From Rikenellaceae bacterium (GTDB taxonomy: Bacteria > Bacteroidota > Bacteroidia > Bacteroidales > Rikenellaceae), in the NCBI GenBank assembly GCA_021201795.1, contig JAJQEF010000020.1, forward strand, positions 154,357 to 218,356: a DNA stretch of 64,000 bases, in the 5' to 3' direction. The notes beneath the pieces were generated by a model. That model was not told the DNA's origin. It saw only the letters and a list, made by a program, of their open reading frames with translations, and ran no database searches. A program made the translations under genes and the position numbers. Of the stretch, positions 2,870 through 58,977 are shown one piece after another (within the stretch, counting starts at the first letter, position 1; every line of letters begins with the position of its first letter).

Positions 2870-3653
2870 AGTGTTTTGGGTGTGTCGTGTGGAGTCAATG
2901 ATAGTCATTTGTTTTTCGATAGCAACCCCTATATCACGTCTGTATTCCGTTTCTTCATCCAAACCTTTGGCATCCCGTACCCTGAGTATTTCTTCTTTTT
3001 TGAGGGGCTTTTTTATGTTCTTTCCTCTGCGGATCTCATACTTCATTTTGGATTCGCTTGCCAAAAGGATAATCGTCTCGTTTAAAAAATTGATATGGAT
3101 CAATCGCAAGGTTTATAATGCTTTTTAACGCTCTCTGATATATGGAGACGGTTGTAATACTGCACCCTCGGTCAAGCATCCATCTTTCATATTGATAGAG
3201 AAAATCCGGTGTGATATCCTTAAACCTAATGTCTGGTTTAAACCGAAGGAAGCTCTTCTTGGCTACTTGCATGGAATCGTGATTGCCGATCCTGCCCTCT
3301 TTGAAGTTCTGTTTCAATACATTGTCCCAAAGCTCCATGAGTTCTTTTTTCTTTCTCCGTTGTTTGGAATTCGGAGAGTTTTGAGTAGTCTGATAATTTG
3401 GTTTTGTGGTTATTTTAATTTCTTCCTGCTGGCTTTCTTTCTGCCTATGAGGGAACATCAACCGCTCGAACTCTTTATCCGTAAATTTATTTCCTAATCT
3501 CTTGATTGTTTTTTCGGCCTTAAGGATCTGATCGTTCATATAACTACGGATCTCAATGAGTCGGGAATCTGTGAGTCGGATTGTTTTATCTGTTAGTCTA
3601 TTCCAATCATCCTCGGTAAGAAAAACCTTCTCATCGAAATGGTAGCGTTTATT
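2870..3653 (-). pseudogene. Decayed tyrosine integrase (phage integrase SAM-like), N-terminal part only
   Basis: Reading the minus strand from 3653, the frame opens after a TAA with an arm-type DNA-binding region (RYHFDEKVFLTEDDWNRL). It continues through FTDKEFERLMF and the SAM-like core-binding region (FKDITPDFLYQYERWML, ITTVSIYQRALKSIINLAI), then reaches YPFGKRIQN and shifts frame near 3044-3055. The other frame resumes with MKYEIRRGKNIKKPLKKEEI, then homology fades by about 2900. The start and the whole catalytic domain (Arg-His-Arg-Tyr) are missing. This is the typical Bacteroidota integrase layout, so it probably inserted the island originally. It is now inactive by 5' truncation, frameshift and 3' loss. 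Confidence 0.8.
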
Positions 3654-28580: not shown

Positions 28581-28703
28581 TGGATTTCACTGCATTAATA
28601 ACAAAGCAGTAAAATGGACGTACAATCAAATAAAAAATAACAGTCTGGTCATTCTTCGTTTGATTTCTTCCCGAGCCCCGCAGGAGTAAATCTAAAATCA
28701 TAA

Positions 28704-28888
28704 AGGCAGGTCTTCTGACTCGTTCCGGTTTTGACGCCTTCCCGTTCTTCTCAGAACAGTGGCAAAGAATGTCAAATTTTTTATGCCATCTTTGGATGAC
28801 AGGAACTTACAGCAACGGGTATTGTTGCCGGATTACACGGCATTCCCTATTAATTCCGTTCACCTGCATGAGGTGATTGGAAACCTTT
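28704..28888 (-). promoter_or_regulatory. Cobalamin riboswitch upstream of the B12 capture operon
   Basis: Minus strand, 5' to 3': the core shows GGTTTCC, GGGAATGCCGTGTAATCCGG, GCTGTAA, GCCACTG, GGGAAGGCGTC and, last, the B12 box AGTCAGAAGACCTGCC. All conserved blocks of the adenosylcobalamin aptamer are present in order. It should switch off the seven-gene surface operon when intracellular B12 is sufficient. Confidence 0.96.
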
Positions 28889-28894
28889 ACGGCA

Positions 28895-28902
28895 CAAATG
28901 TA
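28895..28902 (-). promoter_or_regulatory. Probable -7 box of the B12 operon promoter
   Basis: TACATTTG on the minus strand matches TAnnTTTG and places the start of transcription right at the riboswitch 5' end. I cannot see a clear -33 TTTG. Confidence 0.55.
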
Positions 28903-29000
28903 AAAATATTTTTATATTTTATAACTTTATTTGGAAATTCTTATGTTAAGTTTAAGTTATTCCGTGTAGTTTTGCATCGTTACCGGTTTATTTTTTCGAT

Positions 29001-32141: not shown

Positions 32142-32200
32142 TAAAAACATCCTGCCGCCTTTCTCCCGAAAGCTGCGGACTTTACCCGGTACGGCAGGTC
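32142..32200 (-). terminator. Riboswitch-controlled terminator before nrdD
   Basis: On the minus strand CCTGCCG at the end of the B12 box can pair with CGGCAGG about 40 bases later, followed by ATGTTTTT. An inner CTTTCGGGAGAAAG hairpin lies between. The stem shares bases with the aptamer, so ligand state and termination are mutually linked. Confidence 0.7.
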
Positions 32201-32376
32201 TTCTGACTTATTCCTAGCCTGCCGCCTTCCCGTTCCGGTGCGGAACAGTGGCAGAGAATGACAGGCATTCCGCCCTTTAAAGGACAGAAATTTACAGCTA
32301 CGGGGATAGTTCCTGACTTTCACAGGATTCCCTTTTCATCCCTCCGGATAATTTACTCCGTTATGGGGAACCGTAC
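32192..32376 (-). promoter_or_regulatory. Cobalamin riboswitch controlling nrdDG
   Basis: On the minus strand the blocks occur in order: GGTTCCCC, GGGAATCCTGTG, GTAGCTGTAA, GCCACTGTTCC, GGGAAGGCGGC and the B12 box AGTCAGAAGACCTGCC. TATTTTTG at 32389-32382 (minus) fits a -7 box just before the RNA. Confidence 0.95.
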
Positions 32377-32598
32377 CATTACAAAAATATCCATAAGCGG
32401 AAGATATAAAAATTATTTTGGCAATAAGTTATTAACAAATTGTTAGTAACTTCATTAACAGTCGGATAGAGTTGCATCAGGCCGGTTTATCCATAGACAA
32501 TTTTTTTGCTGATTTTTTTGTGGAGGTTTCTTGTTTGCGTCGAATATTTAAAAAAGTTAATTTGTGCAATAAAAAAATATTGATTTAAAATTAACGGT

Positions 32599-58163: not shown

Positions 58164-58537
58164 ATTTCAATTTTTGGTGTATCTGACACAACTCTTTCGT
58201 GATCCTGCTCAACATTTTGAGGAAGCACCATATTAAAAGGGAACAAACGAATGCCCCTATTGAAAATAACCTATGAATTCCCTCCGAACGAATTGAGTCC
58301 TGAATAAAAAAACTATAAACGCTCCGATCTTCCCGCTAAGAAGAATGAGGTTTGCAATAATGTTCGTTATTCTTATCGGAAAATCTTTTAGCTTCGTTTC
58401 CGGTCTGGTGGAATATCCATTGCAGCTTACGCTATTCGCGTGAGTTGTTCGGGAGCCTGGCTTGGGGATTAGCATTGCGGTTGTTCGGACGGATTCTCTG
58501 TTCCACATTCGGAACAATTCCTCTGGGTATCTTTCAT
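58162..58537 (-). pseudogene. Decayed zinc-ribbon small membrane protein gene
   Basis: On the minus strand ATG 58537 starts MKDTQRNCSECGTENPSEQ, a zinc-ribbon N-terminus, then stops at TAA 58471-58469. The following 300 bases carry protein-like pieces in changing frames, ending with FSIGAFVCSLLIWCFLKML and a short basic tail to TAA at 58164-58162. The layout (zinc ribbon, linker, one or two membrane helices, basic end) is a familiar small Bacteroidales protein. Several stops and frameshifts show it is dead. RNA-like element copy A lies 46 bases before its start. Confidence 0.55.
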
Positions 58538-58582
58538 AGCGTAGGTTTTAGTCAGCTCTGCTACCGTAACCGCATCTTATGA

Positions 58583-58654
58583 GACGCGGGCAAAACCTGC
58601 AATTCAAAAAGGCATAGCCAAAACGCCTTGACCATCCACAGATAAAGCCCACGC
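58583..58654 (-). ncRNA. Structured RNA-like element, copy A
   Basis: Read on the minus strand, the outer arms GCGTGGGC and GCCCGCGT close an 8-pair stem with two G-U pairs. Inside are a hairpin around ATCTGTGGAT, a stem AAGGC...GCCTT and a small hairpin GCAGGTTTTGC. Copy B has the same order and outer stem with compensating changes. It sits just upstream of a decayed zinc-ribbon gene and could be a leader RNA or a small mobile repeat. Confidence 0.5.
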
Positions 58655-58883
58655 CAATCGCGAGCATATATCTATTGAATGAATGATCATTGAGATAATT
58701 TGGCGATTTCTTTTGAATCATTACAATAGCTATGCTATAATTATGTTATTTAAATACGAATATATGGAAATTTCCGGAAATATAAAATATTCCGGCGATG
58801 CCGATGTTATTTTCGTGGGCGGAGGTGCACTGAAGGATTTAGTGCACGATTTTAATTAGCACCGTTCCTGTAAATATTTAAAA
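58655..58883. other. Non-coding spacer between the two RNA-like elements
   Basis: There is no credible gene. It contains a perfect inverted repeat GTGCACT / AGTGCAC with a 9-base spacer (about 58826-58848), which is hairpin-capable but lacks a U tract. Confidence 0.4.
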
Positions 58884-58954
58884 GACGCGGGCAATACCTG
58901 CCGGTTAAAAGGGGCTCGCCAGAGGCTTTGTATACGAACAAAAATCCCCGCGTC
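58884..58954 (-). ncRNA. Structured RNA-like element, copy B
   Basis: On the minus strand GACGCGGG pairs perfectly with CCCGCGTC at the other end. Inside lie a TTTGT...ACAAA hairpin and the hairpin GGCAGGTATTGCC. The segment CAGGTATTGCCCGCGTC differs from copy A by one base only, while the middle differs strongly. It lies 23 bases after the stop of the transglutaminase-like gene. Confidence 0.5.
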
Positions 58955-58977
58955 AAATTCCTTAAGCTCCGCGCCGT

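Follow-up and report, generated by a model that had tools for sequence, protein, structure and literature searches.

Terminator/antiterminator leaders include the classical attenuators, the T-box and many riboswitch expression platforms. The element considered here, found on the minus strand of the window (the whole stretch of 64,000 nucleotides of Rikenellaceae DNA that was analysed) and in related genomes, resembles them in being located in a 5′ leader and in having one strand common to two exclusive helices, the later of which is terminator-like and has a U-run. Unlike these leaders, it comes without an identified leader peptide, tRNA or ligand core, its putative antiterminator is locked by three copy-specific helices, it serves unrelated genes, and strand Z has a third partner near the start codon. 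As for the features of riboswitches, the downstream genes are unrelated and an invariant unpaired core is not obvious from the alignment.

The element is a structured RNA of the same phylum as Flavo-1 and the 6S-type RNAs of Bacteroidetes (Rfam), but cmscan matched none of these in the window or in 28 element loci. The same search gave no match to any family of Rfam 15, with only chance-level, unrelated matches at permissive thresholds. Flavo-1 matches occur both in sense and in antisense (PMC9723704). The candidate palindromic and 5′-UTR structured RNAs of Fremin and Bhatt (2021) include HMP2_4205, a terminator-like Bacteroidetes candidate of 132 bp (PMC8040213). Going by the published description, it resembles the element in length, phylum and predicted terminator, and a fragment of the motif may be listed, without a name, among these candidates. 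No description of the motif was found in the open-access literature outside of supplements.

A leader-like element and its truncated relative

An earlier note on this DNA had described two diverged copies, A (58583–58654) and B (58884–58954), of a structured RNA-like element. Both copies are present at these positions, and their similarity is above chance, with a 44-nt block that is 75% identical in direct orientation, 301 nt apart. The conserved run reported for them is real; GACGCGGGCAAWACCTGC (18 nt) occurs only twice in the window, and only twice in the whole 2.48-Mb genome, with up to three mismatches allowed. The outer stem is likewise found in both copies on the minus strand (A folds at z −4.0, B at z −1.9), and where A relies on G-U pairs, B has A-U or G-C. 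The shared order of inner hairpins was not borne out, as these hairpins differ between the predicted folds of A and B. The boundaries of copy A were also wrong: the noted feature leaves out the partner strands s1, s2, s3 and Y, which are located on its 5′ side, up to 58717. The structure first seen in the two copies corresponds to the 3′ half of the element only, and covers half of just one of its two alternative folds; in its sequence context, the outer stem of A competes with an alternative pairing.

A covariance model built from A and B alone (R1) returned only these two copies in a genome-wide scan, and one R1 match at 23.7 bits lies in a contig of the source genome. Across the order, R1 detected relatives at E from 8e-6 to 0.1, of which two of the weakest, G430 and G290, align poorly and were left out. 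The sequence upstream of the good matches contains s1, s2, s3 and a GCTCACG-like Y that are complementary to strands inside the noted stem-loop, which identifies the noted feature as the 3′ half of a longer element. Strand s2 is usually ATCGCCAA in this first set of sequences, and where it differs, in G182 and G004, the partner differs to match. The 18-nt core was less useful as a search key: in a family search a reversed control pattern also matched in many genomes, of the matches retrieved from other genomes few had even an approximate partner arm, and none had one at the right spacing, so that core matches elsewhere look like chance.

From 5′ to 3′, the order of parts is a promoter box, often a small hairpin, s1, s2, s3, Y, a short loop, X and s3′, then P3 enclosing s2′, s1′, Z, a T-run, a further hairpin and the start codon. 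The corresponding features in the window are:

58576–58717, minus strand: full-length element A, 142 nt, a member of the leader RNA family of intact length, somewhat decayed
58710–58717, minus strand: s1, 5′ strand of the outer variable helix (TTCAAAAG), pairs with 58603–58610
58700–58707, minus strand: s2, conserved strand ATCGCCAA, pairs with loop strand s2′
58679–58689, minus strand: s3, variable strand TGATCATTCAT, 11-bp complement to 58629–58639
58659–58665, minus strand: Y (GCTCGCG), antiterminator-like strand, pairs with X
58647–58655, minus strand: X (GGCGTGGGC), shared strand, with either Y or Z as partner
58629–58639, minus strand: s3′, complement of s3
58611–58627, minus strand: P3 region (GGC..GCC), holds loop strand s2′ at 58614–58621
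58603–58610, minus strand: s1′ (TTTTTGAA), pairs with s1
58583–58591, minus strand: Z (GCCCGCGTC), 3′ arm of the terminator-like stem P1
58469–58537, minus strand: truncated ORF of 22 codons, zinc-ribbon-like, MKDTQRNCSECGTENPSEQPQC, read from the sequence
58884–58954, minus strand: copy B, a 5′-truncated relative with the X to Z part only, abuts the end of the transglutaminase gene
58180–58977, no strand: stretch of about 800 bp with both copies, flanked by pgk and the transglutaminase gene

Element A has all strands of the family defined by R1 and by a second covariance model, R2. Its score with R2 in the genome search (118.6 bits, E 2.3e-24) is partly a matter of construction, A being among the seven sequences used to build that model. 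Several signs of decay are seen. Z is followed by TCATAAG and lacks the U-run typical of the family, s2 has one C-U mismatch, P3 is weak and partly broken, and there is no clear promoter box upstream. The predicted energies of the two folds are nearly balanced, at about −42 kcal/mol for the long hairpin (state 1) and about −44 kcal/mol with P1 forced. Downstream, the 22-codon ORF that had been taken for a zinc-ribbon gene remnant is present, and its ATG, at +180 from the start of element A, has the spacing of the family; the zinc-ribbon assignment itself found no confirmation in Pfam. Element A is best read as a decaying leader relic on a dead, truncated zinc-ribbon-like gene.

Copy B is without the upstream partner strands, and even at E values up to 10 the search of the genome with R2 did not match it. 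Together, the copies are best read as relics of two leader–gene units. The same-genus genome G001 has only about 70–75 nt between pgk and the transglutaminase gene, so the stretch of about 800 bp was either gained here or lost there. No convincing relatives of the whole intergenic stretch were found by DNA similarity in plasmids, phages or 295 genomes of the order. Elsewhere on the minus strand of the window are two cobalamin riboswitches (Rfam RF00174), at 28688–28903 and 32176–32390, with 90.8 and 99 bits.

Distribution and downstream genes

R2 gave 94 matches below 1e-8 among the loci examined; control loci, which came mainly from other phyla and amounted to 753 kb, gave none. Seven matches at E below 0.001 are found in the source genome, the weakest of them partly degenerate. 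At E ≤ 0.01, R2 matched 158 of 393 sampled Bacteroidales genomes; within the family of the window the element is present in 238 of 268 genomes, and in 106 of the 110 of good quality, and a sample across the phylum gave 52 of 395 genomes at E ≤ 0.001. Copies per genome are a lower bound, with 7–11 candidates scored. Two contigs of a viral database (IMG/VR), L326 and L337, carry the element, and MT835758.1, a contig classed as viral, matches one copy at 3030–3188 with 73% DNA identity. Many contigs of fragmented genomes (G276, G300, G499 and others) break off no more than a few hundred bases from an element, which suggests that the leader–gene units are repeated and break assemblies.

The genes that follow the element are very diverse. 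The 97 downstream proteins fall into 83 Pfam families, none of them represented more than three times, and Pfam revealed no function common to these 97 proteins; for this reason, no ligand suggests itself. A simple script found a hydrophobic N-terminus in 60 of 87 downstream ORFs and a lipobox in 23. Other downstream proteins are LytTR regulators, a PD-(D/E)XK protein, an Mrr-type restriction protein and further restriction-like proteins. Eight loci (L293, L297, L298, L303, L305, L306, L307 and L311) carry the element in one genus of another family; the N-terminus of the downstream gene there resembles a SusC/TonB-dependent transporter, and on reading the sequences a short HTH-like gene lies on the opposite strand in seven of the eight. 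At L264 leader and gene form a tandem duplicate (275–419 and 1400–1544, 1125 bp apart) with nearly identical leaders.

Covariation and the selected strand

Comparison between copies shows that both of two exclusive helices are conserved, namely a predicted long hairpin composed of Y:X and three variable helices (state 1), and a predicted terminator-like X:Z hairpin. Because X can base-pair with either Y or Z, the helices Y:X and X:Z are mutually exclusive; in some copies the complementarity extends over as much as about 20 nt. State 1 was scored as 28 pairs over 93 distinct sequences, in which 96.6% of cells are paired compared with 76.1% in shuffles and 37–41% in slid versions. Two-sided changes fill 530 cells (140 in shuffles) and affect 24 of the 28 pairs. 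Since most of state 1 went into the fitting of this alignment, an unfitted test is fairer: with seven sequences aligned by MAFFT without structure, and s1, s2 and Y:X scored, 98.1% of cells are paired, and 28 cells are two-sided against 7.1 in shuffles. The s1 helix is 98.3% paired over the 93 sequences with two-sided changes at all eight pairs, seven pairs of Y:X are 98.9% paired across the family, and in the s3/s4 variable region the own partner pairs far better than a swapped one (z 29). As for state 2, made up of the X:Z stem and P3, these lie outside the R2 model and the alignment is thus not fitted to them; 94.3% of cells are paired, and the 35 two-sided cells (8.3 in shuffles) are reached by 0 of 500 shuffles. 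Helices s1, s2, Y:X and X:Z all covary.

The predicted stabilities of the two states are unequal. State 1 is far more stable in most copies (89 of 95 by MFE), and for four copies from outside the window its energy is −51 to −58 kcal/mol, compared with −32 to −40 kcal/mol when P1 is forced. The terminator-like hairpin encloses about 60 nt, which is longer than usual.

Departures from Watson–Crick pairing in the main helices are G-U in 299 cases and A-C in 14, which indicates that the selected molecule is RNA of the window's minus strand, i.e., the leader sense. This bias bears on a reading of the element as DNA, in which a folded single strand would serve as a recombination or transposition site, attC-like or MITE-like, and spread accessory genes as cassettes. 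Like integron attC sites, the element is a long, imperfect palindrome whose structure is conserved and whose arms vary, and it adjoins diverse accessory genes; tandem leader–gene duplicates such as L264 and the empty site in the sister genome would also fit. Set against this are the wobble bias, which points to selection on a one-strand RNA, the promoter, the terminator-like end with its U-run, and the fixed position 5′ of the gene, where attC lies 3′ of its cassette gene. The attC boxes RYYYAAC/GTTRRRY were not seen in the copies read by eye, and we regard a DNA site as very improbable. We reject a simple MITE or REP repeat on the covariation between differing copies, the clustered start-codon spacing and the G-U bias.

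The earlier note had offered an undescribed leader RNA and a small mobile structured repeat as alternatives. The former has gained support, in that the covariance-model search started from both copies found further copies across Bacteroidales, two-sided changes are extensive, and no Rfam family matches. The latter is at odds with a near-constant distance to the start codon, with covarying helices that are copy-specific, and with departures that are G-U and not A-C.

A proposed switch between two folds

A Bacteroidota −7 box (TAnnTTTG) is present 50–140 nt upstream in 65 of 94 cases, compared with 6.5 ± 2.6 in shuffles, and between this box and s1 there is often a small hairpin, commonly capped by a GUUA tetraloop. 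Of the two exclusive helices the second is followed by a U-run, seen as a T-run of at least five directly after Z in 82 of 95 copies. The start codon is most often 41–68 nt after the element, with a mode of 51, and the gene start is farther away, roughly 220–315 nt or more, in one genus of another family. Minimal ORFs of the form ATG-NNN-stop, such as ATGACATAA, occur 20–90 nt upstream of the element in 42 of 94 cases (17 ± 4 in shuffles), among them L197, L202, L213 and L215; ATGACATAA itself lies 48–53 nt upstream. They are enriched but not universal, and have therefore been kept out of the mechanism.

Promoter box, strong fold and terminator-like end could also belong to a free-standing small RNA of a 6S-like or trans-acting kind, which would stop at a terminator of its own and have the nearby gene as an incidental neighbour; the several hundred nucleotides to the next gene in one genus would agree with this. 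Such an RNA seems unlikely to us given that neither the 6S-type nor any other Rfam families match, that genomes hold many differing copies, and that the clustered distance to the start codon, together with pairing of Z to the region downstream, ties the element to its gene.

On balance, we favour the interpretation that the element represents a Bacteroidota family of cis-acting 5′-leader RNAs with two exclusive folds, probably a transcription attenuator, placed before very diverse accessory genes. Judged from the sequences, transcription would start at a housekeeping promoter upstream of the element, and the Y:X hairpin would form first and let RNA polymerase read through. Within the long hairpin, Y:X would be the antiterminator-like part, locked by the three variable helices s1–s3. 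X:Z would act as an intrinsic terminator and end the transcript before the gene, and a trans factor, an RNA or a ribosome event at s1–s3 or P3 could set the balance between the two. Points that weigh against this interpretation are the lack of a common function among the downstream genes, the remote gene starts in one genus, the unusually long stretch enclosed by X:Z, the predominance of state 1 in the predicted energies, and, in element A, the missing U-run and clear promoter box.

The hairpin downstream of the T-run has a loop complementary to Z (z 11.6 for the own compared with the swapped region). After read-through, Z could pair with this loop near the start codon, and translation may thus be controlled too. 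It is also conceivable that the leader acts mainly on translation or mRNA stability, with a switch of Z between X and the downstream loop gating the start codon, and with the U-run as an inefficient terminator. The near-constant distance to the start codon and the pairing of Z just before the ATG are in line with this, but a U-run directly after the Z arm in 82 of 95 copies is needed by an intrinsic terminator and has no obvious role in translation. We consider an effect mainly at this level to be rather improbable, and less so than an independent small RNA.

Returning to the attenuator, a possible role of the variable lock helices is to prevent cross-pairing between neighbouring leaders. Whether the element amounts to an unnamed, phylum-wide class of bistable leader RNA, which would provide unrelated accessory and surface genes with a common switch after initiation and use copy-specific lock helices to prevent pairing across leaders, appears to us evenly poised. 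The element often occurs in several copies per genome, usually before genes whose products are exported or accessory proteins. Should the switch prove real, it would be among the commoner regulatory RNAs of the phylum, and would constitute an unrecognised layer of control over surface display in gut and environmental bacteria.
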